64,000 bases of DNA from Chlorobaculum parvum NCIB 8327. GTDB lineage: Bacteria > Bacteroidota > Chlorobiia > Chlorobiales > Chlorobiaceae. A program made the position numbers and the translations under genes. The stretch covers positions 2,030,001 through 2,094,000 of the forward strand of contig NC_011027.1 of assembly GCF_000020505.1 (NCBI RefSeq), read 5' to 3'. The notes under the pieces were generated by a model. It was not told the origin of the DNA. It saw only the letters and a list, made by a program, of their open reading frames with translations, and made no database searches. Below are positions 4,252 to 11,185 of this stretch, one piece after another; within the stretch, counting starts at the first letter, position 1; each line of letters starts with the position of its first letter.

Positions 4252-4565
4252 AATGATGAAGTTCAGAAGTTCAGAATCGCCCGTGACGGCCCCCCGGTTT
4301 TATGCCGGCTTTTTGTCTGGATAATGTATTCATTCCCCGTCAATTCTAAGCTATGCAGAATCCTTGTTGCCTCATTACCGTTGCAAAAAAAACGTTCCAA
4401 ATGCGCATTGAAAAACGAACCCATCAAATTGTTGCACTCCTGCAAATAGTGATAAAAAAACACGTCAAACCACCAAAAACGAATTCCAACTACACCTATA
4501 TTTCTATATATTAAGAAGTTAGTTGTCGTTTTTTCTTTTTTCCCTCACCTATAAACTGAAGGATC
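4252..4565. other. AT-rich intergenic region upstream of the RiPP cluster
   Basis: This 314-bp gap between divergent genes is much more AT-rich than its surroundings and must hold the promoters for both directions. A 10-bp palindrome AATGCGCATT lies at 4400-4409. TATATT/TATATA runs at about 4497-4510 are candidate -10 elements for the precursor gene, but I see no convincing -35 partner. Minus-strand frames here look non-coding. AAGGA at 4559-4563 is a likely but tightly spaced ribosome site for the precursor. Confidence 0.5.
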
Positions 4566-4787
4566 ATGAACACCCCTACCTTCGACAGCAGCACACTTAC
4601 GCTCTCACCAGAAACAATGCCCTCGATGCACTGTGACACGTGGGATCCAGACAAACCGACAGCACAGCCCGGAAAAATCTCCATGCACTGCGACACCTGG
4701 ACGCCTGACGAACCGTCAAAACGCACCAGCAGGCTCTCCATGCATTGCGACACCTGGGTACCCGAACCCGAAGAAGGAGACAAGTAA
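4566..4787 (+). CDS. Predicted RiPP precursor peptide with three SMHCDTW core repeats
   Basis: A 73-residue acidic peptide. The heptad SMHCDTW occurs exactly three times, at residues 20-26, 39-45 and 58-64, with a strict 19-residue (57-nt) period. Each copy is followed by x-P-[DE] (WDPD, WTPD, WVPE). The only cysteines (23, 42, 61), histidines (22, 41, 60) and tryptophans (26, 45, 64) sit in these repeats. The linkers between them differ freely. The three DNA copies differ at synonymous positions, so the protein sequence is what is conserved. Residues 1-19 would be a short leader. No double-glycine or signal-peptide cleavage site is visible. It is followed at once by three peptide-modifying enzymes. 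Function as a precursor is inferred from this context and repeat pattern; I know of no named family. Confidence 0.85.
   Translation: MNTPTFDSSTLTLSPETMPSMHCDTWDPDKPTAQPGKISMHCDTWTPDEPSKRTSRLSMHCDTWVPEPEEGDK
4623..4787 (+). repeat. Three 57-bp tandem units encoding SMHCDTW-x-P cores
   Basis: The units start at 4623, 4680 and 4737. The first 21 nt of each encode SMHCDTW and differ only at synonymous third positions (TCG/TCC, CAC/CAT, TGT/TGC, ACG/ACC). The remaining 36 nt vary. The third unit is truncated by the stop codon at 4785-4787. Confidence 0.9.
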
Positions 4788-4798
4788 TCATTCCTGCA

Positions 4799-4835
4799 CC
4801 TGCGGCAAGAATCGTGAATGGCTTCTTGCCGCAGG
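4799..4835 (+). promoter_or_regulatory. 13-bp perfect stem-loop between precursor and maturase genes
   Basis: CCTGCGGCAAGAA (4799-4811) and TTCTTGCCGCAGG (4823-4835) are perfect inverted repeats around an 11-nt loop. The hairpin starts 12 nt after the precursor stop codon and lacks a T-run, so it looks like an mRNA-stabilising or partially attenuating element rather than a full terminator. Such elements commonly raise precursor mRNA over enzyme mRNA in peptide operons; that role here is inferred. Confidence 0.75.
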
Positions 4836-4922
4836 CAACGCTTGGTCATGATAACGGCACTTCAGCCATCACCCCTTTCCCGATCCACCACCCAGACAAC
4901 AGCAAAAGGAGCGGACTCCGAA

Positions 4923-6200
4923 ATGCCCGCATACTCCATTGAACAGAAGGGTGATATAACCTTCCTTCAGCCGTCATCAGGCAAATTCTTCGTCGCGCTC
5001 GACAACCGCTGCGGCCGATGGCAGATGTTCGACGGCAATGCGTCCGAAGCACAAAAAGCTGAAATCGCGGCCAGCCTGAAAGAGTCGCCAACCCCCGATT
5101 TGATGGAGCCAGACGATGACTATCTGGAGGTGGTCATTTTCATCACCGACCGCTGTAACCTTGGCTGCGTCTATTGCAAATACGCCGATCTGACACAGCT
5201 TTCGGAGGTGCGGGGAACGGATGTCGAGCAAATCTGCCGGACGCTCGAAAAGCTGATCCGGGGAAAAAAACAGGTGCGAATCACCTTTCAGGGTGGCGAA
5301 CCCCTGCTCATGCACCGCGAGATCGACCAGATCTGCGCCTTCCTGACCGGCAACTTTTCGGAAATCGAGTTTTCGTTCGCCCTCCAGTCCAACGGCACCC
5401 TGCTGAATGACGCCATTCTGGAGATGCTGAAACAATACGAGATTACCGTCGGCATCACCATCGACGGCCCGGCAAGCCAGCACGACCTGTCGCGCCCGTT
5501 CAAAAACGGCGAAGGGAGCTTCGCGACGATCACAAGCAATCTCGAACGGCTACAAAAAAACAATGTGCGTTGCGGCGTGCTCTCGGTTATCCGCGATCCG
5601 GACGAACTGGAGGCACTGTTCCGCTTCAACCGAGAGGAACTCGGGCTGAACTCCTTCTACCTCAAGCCGCTGGAGTTCGCCGATTCGGGTGCGGAAAGCA
5701 GCGAAGAATTCTCCGCCTACTACGGCAAGCTGGCCGACCGTCAACTCGAATTGATACAGGAACTGATCCGCATTCACACAACGTCGGGAGAACGGATTCA
5801 CGAACAGATGCTTAAAACCGTGCTCGGCAAGATGTTCAGGCCTTCGTTCTACAACGACGGCTGCATCAGAACCCCTTCATGCGGCAGCAACGAGCGCTAC
5901 AAGAGCATGAATTGCGACGGCTCAGTGCAGTGGTGCGCCCATCTTAAAAATCAGCAGGACGAAGCAGTCAAGCAACGCTCGAAGGAGCGCTACGGCTTTT
6001 GCGCCGACTGCCCGATCAGCTCGATCTGCCTCTCGTTCTGCCCCGCCGTCATCCCCGGCTACCGCCACGGCGACCCCGAAGCCTGCTACCTGCCGCTCGC
6101 GAAACGATTCTGCACATACCGCCGCCAGATGATGATGAGCCTGTTCGAGCTGATGCACGAAAACATGCAGGCCGTCACCGCCTGTTTCATGCAGAAATGA
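4923..6200 (+). CDS. Radical SAM/SPASM peptide maturase
   Basis: The 425-residue enzyme probably modifies the adjacent SMHCDTW precursor. The radical SAM cluster motif CNLGCVYC puts the [4Fe-4S] ligands at C78, C82 and C85. GGEP follows in the usual SAM-binding position. The C-terminus is a SPASM domain with cysteines at 320, 331, 338, 360, 363, 369 and 373 and more beyond (CADCPISSIC), enough for auxiliary clusters. The first about 70 residues are a separate N-terminal module of unknown fold. I chose ATG 4923 because AAGGAG lies at 4907-4912; the open frame reaches back to 4818, but that part reads through the intergenic hairpin. SPASM enzymes typically form thioether or carbon-carbon crosslinks in peptides. 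Which bond forms here is unknown. Confidence 0.92.
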   Translation: MPAYSIEQKGDITFLQPSSGKFFVALDNRCGRWQMFDGNASEAQKAEIAASLKESPTPDLMEPDDDYLEVVIFITDRCNLGCVYCKYADLTQLSEVRGTDVEQICRTLEKLIRGKKQVRITFQGGEPLLMHREIDQICAFLTGNFSEIEFSFALQSNGTLLNDAILEMLKQYEITVGITIDGPASQHDLSRPFKNGEGSFATITSNLERLQKNNVRCGVLSVIRDPDELEALFRFNREELGLNSFYLKPLEFADSGAESSEEFSAYYGKLADRQLELIQELIRIHTTSGERIHEQMLKTVLGKMFRPSFYNDGCIRTPSCGSNERYKSMNCDGSVQWCAHLKNQQDEAVKQRSKERYGFCADCPISSICLSFCPAVIPGYRHGDPEACYLPLAKRFCTYRRQMMMSLFELMHENMQAVTACFMQK

Positions 6201-6207
6201 ATCCGCA

Positions 6208-7992
6208 ATGAGCAGCGCGCTTGAACAGATGCGAGTCGCCTTGCGCTCAACCGGGATGGAGGTTTGCGAAAAAACCCGTCAGGGCAGCGAACTGCCGTTT
6301 TTCACCACCATGCTCTTCGCAGGTAAAACTCCGGACGACGACTCCTTACCGCTGGTTTCCGGGCAAGGCATCACCGCCGAAGCCTCGCTTTTGAGCGCGT
6401 ACGGCGAGTTCTTTGAGCGGCTCCAGAACAACTTTATCATCGCCGGCTACCGCTACGCCTGCGCTTCGAATGGCGGATACGACCGGCTGCCAGAGCGGTG
6501 CCGTCAGCGCCTCGACCGGCAGGGCGGGCCGCTGGATTTTTTCATCGCGCCGGACGAAACGTGGATCGCGGCAGATCGGTTCGGTGCGGCGGAAAACCCC
6601 GACCTCATGCCGCGCCACCAGATGCCTGCGAGCAGTGGGGTCGATGGCGACACGCTCCTGTGCGTGCCGTTTTACTCGGTGTTCGACGATTCGGTACGGC
6701 TCTGCCCGATCGAACGGATGCTCTTCGCCAGCGGAAGCACAGGCTGCGCGGCCGGAAGGACTCTTGAACAGGCAATCGCCAAAGCGCTGTTCGAAATCTG
6801 CGAGCGGCATGTCTTTCACCGGATTTTCTCGGACGAGCCACCACTGCCGCTCATCCCGCGCGAGCTGTTACGGAACACCGAAGCTGACCGGATCATCGAA
6901 GCCATCGAAGAGCGCAGCACAAGCGTCACCTTGCTCGATTGCTCGCTCGGCGCACGATTTCCAGTCGTCGCCATGCTGCTCATCGACCGCCAGCGGCAGC
7001 GCTACAACTGCAACCTCGGAGCCGCAGCGACGCTCTCCGGGGCAGTCATCGGAGCACTGAAAGAGCTTTACGACGGCGGCAACGACTTCCACGCCCTGCC
7101 GCTCTCCGGCCTCGACAACCCGTTCGCGGCAACAACCGCCGATGAGAGCCACCGCCTGCGCTTCGCCAACTACTACGCAGCCAAAGCGTCGAGCACTGGC
7201 CTCTGGCCGAAATCGCTCTTCGCCAGCCGCAACTCCGCGTCACAGTGGATCGACGAAACCTGGAGCGACGAGCTGGCCGGCCGCCCACTCAAAGTCCTGC
7301 TCGAACGCTTCGCAAGCTGGACGCCCACGCTCTACATTCGCGACGTCTCGTGGCTCGGCATCCCGTCAGTCTACTGCTACGCACCCGGCCTGAGCGAGGT
7401 GAACTACACCACGGGTCGCAACGAACTTACCATGCTGCTTGAGCTGCGAGCCGAAAGCGAACGTCTGCAAAGCTCCGGAGAAATGGAGATGAAACGGTTG
7501 CTGCGAATCATGGAGCTTCACCGAAGTCTGAAACGCATCACCCTTCCGGCCTCTGTCAGGTTGCTGAACAGCTTTGCGTGCCCGAACCTCCCCGGCAGTG
7601 CCCGGCAGCGTGAAGCGACACTGCTCGCCGCACTCGCACAGCTTTTCGGCGACAAAACGCCACATGACGAATCGCTGCTTGATCGATGCATCCGCGACAG
7701 CAAACAGCTTGCGGATGAAAGCTGCAATGCGGCGGAAATCAACTCGCAATTGCGGCAATTCTATCCTGACAGCGTGGTCGATCTGGCCGCCCGGTGCAGA
7801 CAAGCGCCAGCAGAAGTCATCGAAAATGCGCTGCATTCAATCGAACTGCCTGGCAATGAATCGGCCTGCGACGACTGCCATTTCCTGAAAACTGTCGAAA
7901 CGGCGAGGCGGCTTCAGAAACGACAGATCACCAATCTGCCCGACCAGCGCCGCCTTGCAGAAATCCTCACAACCGCCAGGAACGAAACATGA
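6208..7992 (+). CDS. YcaO-domain peptide-modifying enzyme
   Basis: The 594-residue protein has both ATP-binding signatures of YcaO proteins: a G-x-G-I segment followed by E67-x2-E70-R71 (GEFFER), and a GCAAGRT segment followed by E196-x2-E199-R200 (EICERH). YcaO enzymes use ATP to activate a peptide amide, giving azolines from Cys/Ser/Thr, or thioamides or amidines with other partners. Cys in each precursor repeat is the obvious candidate target. No separate E1-like (ThiF/cyclodehydratase C) or TfuA partner is visible nearby. The C-terminus has no PxPxP motif and instead ends in a helical, Cys-containing stretch (CDDC near residue 554). It starts 7 nt after the SPASM gene and overlaps the next gene by ATGA. 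Confidence 0.9.
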   Translation: MSSALEQMRVALRSTGMEVCEKTRQGSELPFFTTMLFAGKTPDDDSLPLVSGQGITAEASLLSAYGEFFERLQNNFIIAGYRYACASNGGYDRLPERCRQRLDRQGGPLDFFIAPDETWIAADRFGAAENPDLMPRHQMPASSGVDGDTLLCVPFYSVFDDSVRLCPIERMLFASGSTGCAAGRTLEQAIAKALFEICERHVFHRIFSDEPPLPLIPRELLRNTEADRIIEAIEERSTSVTLLDCSLGARFPVVAMLLIDRQRQRYNCNLGAAATLSGAVIGALKELYDGGNDFHALPLSGLDNPFAATTADESHRLRFANYYAAKASSTGLWPKSLFASRNSASQWIDETWSDELAGRPLKVLLERFASWTPTLYIRDVSWLGIPSVYCYAPGLSEVNYTTGRNELTMLLELRAESERLQSSGEMEMKRLLRIMELHRSLKRITLPASVRLLNSFACPNLPGSARQREATLLAALAQLFGDKTPHDESLLDRCIRDSKQLADESCNAAEINSQLRQFYPDSVVDLAARCRQAPAEVIENALHSIELPGNESACDDCHFLKTVETARRLQKRQITNLPDQRRLAEILTTARNET

Positions 7993-9824
7993 CCATCGCT
8001 CTCACCATCTTTCCCTGCTTTTCGGACAAAACGCTCCCGCTCGGCCTGGCTTGCCTGAAAAGCGTGCTGGACGGCGAGGGCATCGAAAGTGAGGTGTTCG
8101 ATTTCGACCTGTTGCTGAGCATCGAAGACCCGGCGCTCTACTACCAGCTCCATCGCCTCGGAGCCAGCCCCGGCGCGGCGCTCGACGACCGGATGATAAA
8201 CTTCATCGGCTACCGCCCCGACCTCACCCTTGCGGCACTCTTCACCCCGCCCGAAGAGGCGCGAAAGCGGTTCGAAACGGACGGACTTGAACAGCTTTTC
8301 GACAAGCTCGACCACTTCCTCGAACGCGCGGTCACGCGGCTGCTCGCAACGGAGCCGGAGCAAATCTGGCTCTCCACCTACATCAGCAACCTCTGGGTTT
8401 CGATGCTCGCCGCCCGCAAACTGCGCGAACGCACGGAAGCGACAATCGTGTTCGGAGGCCCGGCGGTGTTCCCCGAAGAGGTGCAGCGTTTTCTGATTGT
8501 GAACGGTCTGGCCGACAGGGTCGTCGTGGGCGAAGGTGAACTGACGGCGCGGGAGCTGATCCGCGCGAACGGCAGGCCGGTGGCGGGCGCGGCGCAAATG
8601 ATCGAGGGGGAGTTCCGGTACGAGCCGCGCCACGAATGGCTGAGGCCAGAGGAGTTCCCGATGCCCGATTTCAAAGGATTCCCATTCGCGGACACGCCCT
8701 TCGACGCCTACCTGCGGCGGCGCTTCGAGGGCCTCCCGGTCTCCTTTTCGCGCGGCTGCGTCAACGGCTGTATCTACTGCTCCGAAAAGCAGATATGGAA
8801 GCGCTTCCGCCACCTCTCGCCCGAAGCCTCCGTCGAACGGCTCGCCGCGTACAAACAGCGCTTCGGCATCGGTCTCTTCTACATTTGCGACAGCCTCATC
8901 AACTTCAGCGAAGCGTGGCTGTCGGAGTTCTGCGACCTGATTCTGTCGAGCGATCTGCAACCGCTCTTCACCTTCGCCTTCTGCGACCTGAAGCACCTCA
9001 AACCGGAGCTGACCGCAAAGATGGCTGCGGCGGGATTCACGAGGATCACCTTCGGCCTCGAAAGCGCGTCCGAAAACGTGCTGACGAGAATGCACAAAAA
9101 GCTCGATCTCGACCTCGCCCGCGAAAACATCGTCGCGGCAACCCGCAACGGGCTGTCGATCCACGTATCAACCATCATCAACTTTCCGGGCGAACAGACC
9201 GCCGACGCGCTCGACACAATCCGGTTTTTCAGAGAGATCGACCGTGAGCTTGCTGGCAACAACCTGCCGATGACGCACCTGCCCCGCCGAAGCCTCAGCA
9301 ACCGCTTTCGGCTCGAACCCGCCTCGGCGATCTACCTGCACCCGGAGCACTACGGCATCCGCATGGAAACGACCGGAGCATCGTGGACGCCGCTTGCTGA
9401 AGAGAGCGCCTTTCTGGCCAAACGGTGGCGTTCGTCCGACGACCAGGAGCAACTGGAGTGGAACGCTTACCTGCTTTCCGGCTTTTCAAAAAACCCGCGA
9501 CCGTGGCACCTGCACGACAGCCAGTACAGAAAACAGGCCGAAGCCATTGCCCCGCTCATCGACAAGGAAAAGCATCGCTTCACACTCTCGCCGCATGTCG
9601 TATTGCGACAATCGACTCCCGAAAACGGGCTCATCCTGCACGATTACCGCGAAGAGTTCCAGCTCGACGACTGGCAATCCCAAGTTATCAGGCTGCTGGC
9701 AAAAAAAGCTTCTCTCCATGAAATTACGGAAAAGATCACCGCCCTCACCGAAGCGAAATCGGCTGGCGCAATCAGAGACTTCGTGCTTTTCCTCTATGTG
9801 AGAGGCATCGCCCGAATCACCTGA
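7989..9824 (+). CDS. Cobalamin-type radical SAM enzyme with C-terminal RRE/PqqD-like domain
   Basis: The 611-residue protein begins with a Rossmann-like half (about 1-200) containing GGPAVFPEE and VVGEGE, as in B12-binding radical SAM enzymes. No DxHxxG motif is present, which suits base-off cobalamin binding. The radical SAM core has C257, C261 and C264 (CVNGCIYC). It resembles the RiPP-maturation radical SAM C-methyltransferase type. The last about 80 residues (from about 530) read like a PqqD/RRE fold: a basic strand LSPHVVLRQ, a segment ending in FQLDDWQSQVIRLL, and a final helix DFVLFLYVRGI. That would let the enzyme bind the precursor leader itself. Translation is coupled to YcaO by the ATGA overlap. 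Methylation of the precursor is a reasonable guess, not shown. Confidence 0.88.
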   Translation: MTIALTIFPCFSDKTLPLGLACLKSVLDGEGIESEVFDFDLLLSIEDPALYYQLHRLGASPGAALDDRMINFIGYRPDLTLAALFTPPEEARKRFETDGLEQLFDKLDHFLERAVTRLLATEPEQIWLSTYISNLWVSMLAARKLRERTEATIVFGGPAVFPEEVQRFLIVNGLADRVVVGEGELTARELIRANGRPVAGAAQMIEGEFRYEPRHEWLRPEEFPMPDFKGFPFADTPFDAYLRRRFEGLPVSFSRGCVNGCIYCSEKQIWKRFRHLSPEASVERLAAYKQRFGIGLFYICDSLINFSEAWLSEFCDLILSSDLQPLFTFAFCDLKHLKPELTAKMAAAGFTRITFGLESASENVLTRMHKKLDLDLARENIVAATRNGLSIHVSTIINFPGEQTADALDTIRFFREIDRELAGNNLPMTHLPRRSLSNRFRLEPASAIYLHPEHYGIRMETTGASWTPLAEESAFLAKRWRSSDDQEQLEWNAYLLSGFSKNPRPWHLHDSQYRKQAEAIAPLIDKEKHRFTLSPHVVLRQSTPENGLILHDYREEFQLDDWQSQVIRLLAKKASLHEITEKITALTEAKSAGAIRDFVLFLYVRGIARIT

Positions 9825-10175: not shown

Positions 10176-10354
10176 ATCGAATCCTCCTTGCTGATTATCG
10201 TTTTCTGAAAAAACATCTCACTTCGGAAACGGTGTCACTGCTTCAGCCAATATAGGCAACAAACAGTGAGCGTCACATGAGGCTAATGTTGTTAAGAGCG
10301 TTACCTTGTCAGAAATCGACTGAATTGAAACCTGTGCCGACATTTGACTGCATC

Positions 10355-11185
10355 ATGAAACTGACCATTCTCACCGACAACCAGGCCGCACCCGGACTTG
10401 CCTGCGAACACGGCTTCGCGGTGCTGATTGAAACCGGCGGCAAGCGCATCCTTTTCGACACCGGCCAGCTCGGCGCATTCGACGCAAACTGCCGCGCGCT
10501 CGGCATCGACTTGTCGGACATCGACATCATCGTGCTCAGCCACGGCCACTACGACCACACCGGCAACCTCGCCGACGTGCTCCGAATCGCCGACCGCGCC
10601 ACGCTCTACCTCCACCCGTCAGCGCTCGTCGAACGCTACAGCATCCGCAACGGCAAGCCCAAACCCATCGACATGCCCGAAGCCGCCAAGCAGGCAATTG
10701 ACGAACTGCCGAAAGAGCGAATCGTGTGGGTTAGCGAACCGACGCGCCTGACCGATGGCGTCTTCCTGACCGGCCCGGTCCCCCGCCAGACAACCTTCGA
10801 GGATACCGGCGGCCCGTTTTTCTTTGATCCGGACGGAAAAACGCCTGACCCCATTGAAGACGATCTGTCGCTCTGGATCGAGAAGCCGGAAGGCCTGACC
10901 GTGCTCGCAGGATGTTGCCATTCCGGCATCGTCAACACGCTTGACTACATCGAGAGCATCACCGGGCAAAAACGGATCGCGACGCTTATCGGCGGAATGC
11001 ACCTCTCGGCAGCCAGCCCGGAGCGCCTCGACCGCACCGTAGCATCGCTCGCCGAGCGCGACATCGCCCGCCTCATTCCCTGCCACTGCACCGGGGAGGC
11101 AGCCGCAGAACGCTTCAGCAAAGAGCTGCCGTATCCAGTAGAGGCGGGTTATGCAGGCATGGTGGTGGAGTTAGGGAAAAAGTGA
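10355..11185 (+). CDS. Metallo-beta-lactamase-fold hydrolase (dihydropteroate-synthase-related COG1237 type)
   Basis: The 276-residue product (start at ATG 10355, beginning MKLTILTDN) has the metal-binding motif HGHYDHTG near residue 62, a later GCCHSG segment and a C-terminal CHCTG. This layout fits the MBL-fold group annotated as 7,8-dihydropterin-6-yl-methyl-4-(beta-D-ribofuranosyl)aminobenzene 5'-phosphate synthase-like proteins. The true substrate is not known for most members. An in-frame start at 10277 would add 26 residues with no family resemblance, so I rejected it. It probably forms a single-gene unit. Confidence 0.85.
   Translation: MKLTILTDNQAAPGLACEHGFAVLIETGGKRILFDTGQLGAFDANCRALGIDLSDIDIIVLSHGHYDHTGNLADVLRIADRATLYLHPSALVERYSIRNGKPKPIDMPEAAKQAIDELPKERIVWVSEPTRLTDGVFLTGPVPRQTTFEDTGGPFFFDPDGKTPDPIEDDLSLWIEKPEGLTVLAGCCHSGIVNTLDYIESITGQKRIATLIGGMHLSAASPERLDRTVASLAERDIARLIPCHCTGEAAAERFSKELPYPVEAGYAGMVVELGKK

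Follow-up and report, generated by a model that had tools for sequence, protein, structure and literature searches.

A four-gene cassette of green sulfur bacteria combines a repeated SMHCDTW peptide with three predicted RiPP maturation enzymes

What might be made by a locus in which a 73-residue peptide with three exact copies of SMHCDTW precedes genes for a SPASM radical SAM enzyme, a YcaO protein and a B12-type radical SAM enzyme? This arrangement, with ATGA coupling between the last two genes, was described in a first-pass annotation of a 64,000-nucleotide stretch of the Chlorobaculum parvum NCIB 8327 genome (the window; positions 2,030,001–2,094,000 of the 2,289,249-bp single-contig genome), and every element of it was confirmed in the sequence and by domain searches. 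The locus is best explained as a self-contained RiPP maturation cassette in which each repeat would receive three modifications, a reading to which we assign a probability of approximately 0.6.

Organisation and borders of the cassette

The four genes lie on the plus strand of the window between positions 4566 and 9824, in the order peptide gene, radical SAM/SPASM, YcaO and B12-binding radical SAM, and the ATGA overlap of the last two can be read directly in the sequence. The features of the cassette are as follows.

4566–4787, plus strand: predicted precursor peptide, 73 aa, with a leader of approximately 18 residues (MNTPTFDSSTLTLSPETM) ahead of three repeats of 19 residues, each based on SMHCDTWxP(D/E)
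4623–4643, plus strand: core repeat 1, SMHCDTW
4680–4700, plus strand: core repeat 2, SMHCDTW
4737–4757, plus strand: core repeat 3, SMHCDTW
4799–4835, plus strand: RNA hairpin with a 13-bp perfect stem, between the precursor and enzyme genes
4923–6200, plus strand: probable radical SAM/SPASM peptide maturase, 425 aa, likely start at 4923
6208–7992, plus strand: YcaO, E. coli YcaO-like, expected to activate backbone amides using ATP, with a C-terminal domain of helices and a CxxC (C554/C557) specific to the cassette
7989–9824, plus strand: radical SAM protein of the B12-binding type, putatively a RiPP C-methyltransferase
9561–9821, plus strand: predicted RRE (PqqD-like), forming the C-terminal end of the B12 radical SAM protein

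The SPASM gene probably runs from 4923 to 6200. An open reading frame start at 4818 is disfavoured for this gene: it falls inside the hairpin, and the alignment with homologues begins only at the ATG at position 4923.

The borders of the cassette are given by its non-carriers. In three of these genomes (G003, G015 and G020), the epimerase and cytochrome genes that flank the cassette directly adjoin one another, and past this pair the MBL-fold, glycerol kinase and ABC genes follow in unchanged order; the joined flanks therefore define the cassette as exactly the four genes. Within the borders set by this comparison of carriers and non-carriers there is no transporter, protease, regulator or immunity gene. 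The MBL-fold gene itself, located next to that for the cytochrome (window positions 10277–11185), is missing from the carriers G016 and G002 (L038 and L039), where its neighbours are kept, and is present in the other relatives examined. On the 5′ side of the precursor gene, a short A+T-rich stretch at 4480–4530 contains facing CAACTA and TTAGTTG halves reminiscent of an operator, and similar, though not identical, stretches occur in relatives.

The stem between the precursor and enzyme genes is kept in five genomes, with 93.8% of cells paired as against 35–62% when slid. Four of its pairs are changed on both sides, which is modest evidence given that the five sequences fall into only two groups. 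The hairpin lacks a T-run, making a plain terminator unlikely, and it probably serves in transcript processing, stabilisation or attenuation. It may cut read-through into the enzyme genes or shape the transcript, with the precursor being made in excess over the enzymes. At the corresponding place the more distant carrier G058, described below, has a different stem of approximately 15 bp followed by a T-run.

Conservation of the repeat and linkage to the enzymes

The three SMHCDTW copies are spaced strictly at 57 bp, or 19 codons. Their DNA differs pairwise by 3, 4 and 1 bases, all of them synonymous, and thus these are repeats at the level of protein and not a fresh DNA duplication. The 21-base motif has no other site in the genome, and a control search with the reversed pattern also returned zero. 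Among close homologues the precursor has a dN/dS of approximately 0.10 in the sense frame (73 codons, with seven synonymous and three nonsynonymous changes), compared to approximately 0.33 for its only open antisense frame. The substitutions thus fit the sense frame better than the antisense open reading frame at 4511–4849 (minus strand, 112 aa), which seems to be a side effect of codon composition and was rejected as a gene; frames resembling it remain open in relatives. A match between the precursor and the Pfam family PssL (E = 8e-4 over 7 residues, below the cut-off) was taken as chance.

Across the 18 motif copies of six carriers, SMHCDT is invariant, as is a proline two residues past the Trp, while the Trp itself is present in 17 copies and is once replaced by Tyr. 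An Asp or Glu six residues after the Cys, giving CDTWxP(D/E), is likewise found in 17 of the 18, the missing case being repeat 1 of G002. Variation is concentrated in the residue between Trp and Pro, in the spacers and in the leader, although one element of the leader, F...[LF][TS]L, is conserved. The number of repeats per precursor is 2, 3 or 4, and the Ser codons of the motif are drawn from both the TCN and AGY families. A motif that stays fixed while its codons vary implies strong protein-level selection on the repeat, and a fixed motif set among variable linkers is what would be expected, at the sequence level, of a modified core requiring recognition by enzymes.

The precursor and SPASM gene were found together in 5 of 41 genomes searched, own genome included, and the YcaO in 6 of 98 genomes of the order. 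Five carriers are Chlorobaculum-type genomes that hold the cassette at one shared chromosomal site; the four close relatives among them have all four genes in the same order, with 3, 3, 3 and 4 motif copies (one of the four being SMHCDTY). The sixth carrier, G058, belongs to another genus and has the same four genes with enzymes that are 42–54% identical. Its precursor reads MNKNFCSSLFSVDNLTLKSGTKMPSMHCDTW...RLPSMHCDTWDPNDK, with one Ser encoded by AGT instead of TCN, and a leader-like DNLTLKSGTKMP returns ahead of the second unit as DNFSLSLSSRLP. The flanks of this copy are unrelated to those in Chlorobaculum, and the presence of the same four genes between different flanks argues for transfer as a unit. 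Just 3′ of the G058 cassette (L048, reverse complement 8056–9342) lies a gene whose product resembles leucine-rich-repeat proteins and has, near its start, a CxxC...CxxC stretch similar to a zinc ribbon.

Carriers outside these two genera were not found in a 394-genome sample of the phylum, which is a thin sample, and a scan of genome contigs with the B12 enzyme returned close relatives only. A plasmid collection yielded no convincing relative of the precursor (best E = 0.5) and only remote YcaOs, one of which, on a Sulfurovum plasmid, has neither a radical SAM gene nor a precursor annotated beside it. Two entries of that collection, CP054248.1 (L067; 542 kb, E. coli, with serC, ycaO and focA) and CP125156.1 (5.4 Mb, Klebsiella), carry chromosomal genes and are probably mislabelled pieces of chromosome. 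In viral contigs ATGCAYTGYGAYACNTGG occurs five times, in each case within a short, chance-like open reading frame, and these hits were discarded.

As a check on its proposal of a RiPP cassette with the repeated core as shared substrate, the first-pass annotation had suggested looking for different precursors beside these enzymes in relatives. None was seen: the SMHCDTW precursor lies directly 5′ of the same three enzyme genes in all six carriers, across two genera and two sites, even where the enzymes are only 42–54% identical. The proposal is borne out at the level of sequence, and we consider it very probable that this is a RiPP cassette whose substrate is the SMHCDTW repeats.

Predicted activities of the three enzymes

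The SPASM protein contains the radical SAM motif CxxxCxxC (C78/C82/C85) and a full SPASM pattern, C320-X12-G-X4-C338 ... C360-X2-C363-X5-C369-X3-C373 ... C397, and all of these cluster-binding cysteines are invariant in the six homologues. Its best NCBIfam model is the PapB ranthipeptide maturase NF047865 (114.5 bits, under the cut-off of 340), followed by the cyclophane-forming YhhB (106 bits), and its best solved relative is ChlB. The protein is probably a peptide-modifying, crosslinking enzyme, for which the type of bond can be suggested by analogy only. PapB accepts Cys-Xn-Asp substrates with n from 0 to 6 (PMC9413430); the motif offers n = 0 in the invariant CD pair and n = 5 in CDTWxP(D/E), both compatible with a PapB-type thioether. 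By this analogy the odds that the product is a Cys thioether are about even.

The YcaO protein (Pfam PF02624, E = 8.9e-39) contains both glutamate ATP motifs, EFFER and EICER, and residues E67, E70, E196, E199 and R200 are invariant. When a profile of the six homologues was searched against the PDB, it retrieved a single solved sequence, that of E. coli YcaO (E = 1.1e-24). A structure search also ranks this enzyme first, albeit with a poor YcaO model as the query; the full AF2 model (pLDDT 48.6) is of too low a quality for the active site to be located, and its C-terminal third is predicted to be helical. The two proteins share the ATP-site glutamates, a helical C-terminal domain and the lack of TfuA. 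E. coli YcaO is encoded without a neighbouring precursor gene; work from 2026 demonstrated that it thioamidates Met82 of uL16 in an organism without TfuA, and non-acidic YcaOs of its group sit in RiPP-like contexts (PMC13063428). The repeat described here also contains a Met. In contrast to the E. coli enzyme, the cassette YcaO is encoded in an operon with a short precursor and scores only 95.9 bits against the E. coli YcaO family model, for which the cut-off is 700. Furthermore, it is 23% identical to E. coli YcaO and has a pI of 5.4 (range 5.2–5.6 for the cassette YcaOs) as opposed to 4.4, from which we conclude that it is not the uL16-modifying orthologue. All six cassette YcaOs retain an additional C-terminal CxxC (554–557), which has no counterpart in E. 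coli YcaO and may be a zinc site or a sulfur relay.

The first-pass annotation had anticipated azoline formation by the YcaO (−18/−20 Da), which now appears less likely. None of the four cassette genes encodes an E1/ThiF-like partner, a fusion or a dehydrogenase, and no PxPxP is present at the C-termini of the six YcaO homologues. Moreover, with one Cys per repeat, an azoline and a thioether would compete and are unlikely to form on the same unit, which disfavours the predicted mass loss. A TfuA (PF07812) was not found in the genome using a search whose control was positive in Methanosarcina. Green sulfur bacteria oxidise sulfide. Some thioamide-forming YcaOs come from hosts living in high-sulfide environments, whereas others tend to use a sulfur carrier together with TfuA (PMC13063428). 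A backbone thioamide is thus favoured by the nearest solved relative, the lack of both TfuA and an azoline partner, and the sulfide-rich host, and we judge this assignment, made by analogy, to have roughly an equal chance of being right or wrong.

The third enzyme matches the radical SAM family PF04055 above the cut-off and the B12-binding family PF02310 more weakly (E = 1.3e-5, below the cut-off), and its CxxxCxxC (C257/C261/C264) is invariant. Its best NCBIfam model, TIGR03975, describes a RiPP C-methyltransferase and aligns over nearly the full length (98.6 bits against a cut-off of 282), suggesting by analogy that C-methylation is its likely activity. The last 87 residues are predicted with good confidence (pLDDT 89.9) to adopt an RRE-like fold, for which the top structural match is leader-bound TbiB1 (Z = 11.8; 81 residues superposed at an rmsd of 2.0 Å). 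The best matches, which also include ThcOx, TigE, a lasso B1 protein and PqqD, are domains that bind RiPP peptides. The C-terminus is confidently predicted to be a RiPP recognition element, and a modelled domain of the leader-binding type among the cassette enzymes points to a peptide substrate even when the adjacent short gene is left out of account.

Proposed maturation, alternatives and related systems

The genes and their domains, the conservation of the repeat, its linkage to the enzymes, the predicted RRE fold and the discreteness of the cassette are directly established, and a maturation pathway can be proposed around them. Each enzyme falls below the curated cut-off of every named family and consequently each reaction is assigned by analogy; the order of the steps and the fate of the peptide are inferred in the same way. 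The leader would be docked by the RRE of the B12 enzyme, perhaps helped by the other enzymes. The SPASM enzyme would couple the Cys sulfur either to the adjacent Asp or to the Asp/Glu six residues on, and the YcaO, fed with free sulfide without TfuA, would convert one backbone amide per repeat to a thioamide, most likely between Met and His by comparison with Met82 of uL16. The B12 enzyme would add one C-methyl group per repeat, with Asp, Thr and Trp as candidate residues, and the expected mass shifts are about −2, +16 and +14 Da per repeat. That thioamide, thioether and C-methyl are all placed on the repeat is hypothetical, with a joint probability well under one half.

With no transporter or protease in the cassette as bounded above, the product would either stay in the cell as a multi-copy peptide or rely on general proteases and export. 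Met, His, Cys and Asp can all coordinate metal, and a repeated metal-binding or redox peptide kept inside the cell, acting like a chalkophore or buffer in place of being cleaved and exported, would suit the repeats of these four residues, their varying number (2, 3 or 4), the lack of transporter, protease and immunity genes, and a precursor sequence with no signal-peptide-like N-terminus. Known thioamidated RiPP clusters may, however, also be without transporters (PMC8120280), and the Cys would be blocked if thioether-linked; we think this outcome rather unlikely, though compatible with the maturation cassette proposed here. It is unlikely that the cassette makes a RiPP of another kind, with the YcaO forming a thiazoline at Cys (or an oxazoline at Ser/Thr) and the SPASM enzyme forming a C–C cyclophane (His-x-Asp or Trp-x-x) that leaves the Cys free. 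The H-C-D and W-x-P-D elements do resemble aromatic-x-x cyclophane substrates, YhhB and ChlB are among the closest relatives of the SPASM enzyme, and the YcaO has a weak match to SagD-type cyclodehydratases (E = 2e-12), but this chemistry sits poorly with the missing partner proteins and PxPxP terminus and with a nearest solved structure that forms thioamides. It is very improbable that the short gene encodes no substrate and that the enzymes act instead on a housekeeping protein, in the way that E. coli YcaO, itself lacking an adjacent precursor gene (PMC13063428), targets uL16, given the repeat gene 5′ of the enzymes in every carrier found, its dN/dS of approximately 0.1, a motif unchanged between diverged enzymes, the predicted RRE, and a patchy spread through the order that misfits a housekeeping substrate.

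The maturation cassette can be compared with several characterised systems. As in PapA/PapB (freyrasin, a ranthipeptide), a SPASM enzyme would act on several Cys/Asp pairs of one peptide and PapB is the best model, but the score is far under the cut-off and CX3D is absent, its place being taken by CD and CX5(D/E). Unlike this cassette, the pap system presumably includes neither a YcaO nor a B12 enzyme. Bottromycin also differs in its macrolactamidine and thiazole and its single N-terminal core, and it is not known to involve a SPASM crosslinking enzyme. It nonetheless resembles the cassette in directing a YcaO and radical SAM C-methyltransferases to one peptide (PMC5103208). Predicted TfuA-YcaO RiPP clusters, some without transporters, pair a YcaO with a radical SAM enzyme of either the SPASM or the B12-binding type (PMC8120280), but they have TfuA, and none described there has all three enzymes and an SMHCDTW core. 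In TvgA/TvgB, each repeat of a short repeated core is modified by one radical SAM enzyme (PMC9062424); there, however, the repeat is TVGG, the product is cyclopropylglycine, and oxidase and peptidase/transporter genes accompany the system with no YcaO or B12 enzyme.

The initial claim that the cluster is unlike any characterised class therefore holds in part. Pairs of these enzymes and repeated radical SAM cores are already known; the set of three enzymes on a short multi-copy core appears to be the new part. The three-enzyme set is represented by no curated family in NCBIfam, Pfam or PADLOC, and a defence library gave only generic radical SAM (viperin) similarity. Neither MHCDTW nor the combination of YcaO, SPASM and B12-dependent radical SAM enzymes was found in open-licence papers, a scope in which a description in a subscription journal may be missed. 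The same literature yielded no description of RiPPs from green sulfur bacteria, a field that seems little studied.

With a 73-residue substrate, three enzymes and no accessory genes, this minimal system could be used to study whether YcaOs similar to that of E. coli introduce thioamides into RiPP precursors independently of TfuA when the cell is rich in sulfide, and in what order three chemistries take place on a unit of seven residues. It is possible, although on balance doubtful, that the cassette defines a new RiPP class in which each repeat carries a crosslink (thioether or C–C), a TfuA-independent thioamide derived from environmental sulfide and a B12-dependent C-methyl group. If so, the product in these sulfidic phototrophs would be a peptide of 2–4 decorated units that are almost the same, and it might bind metal.
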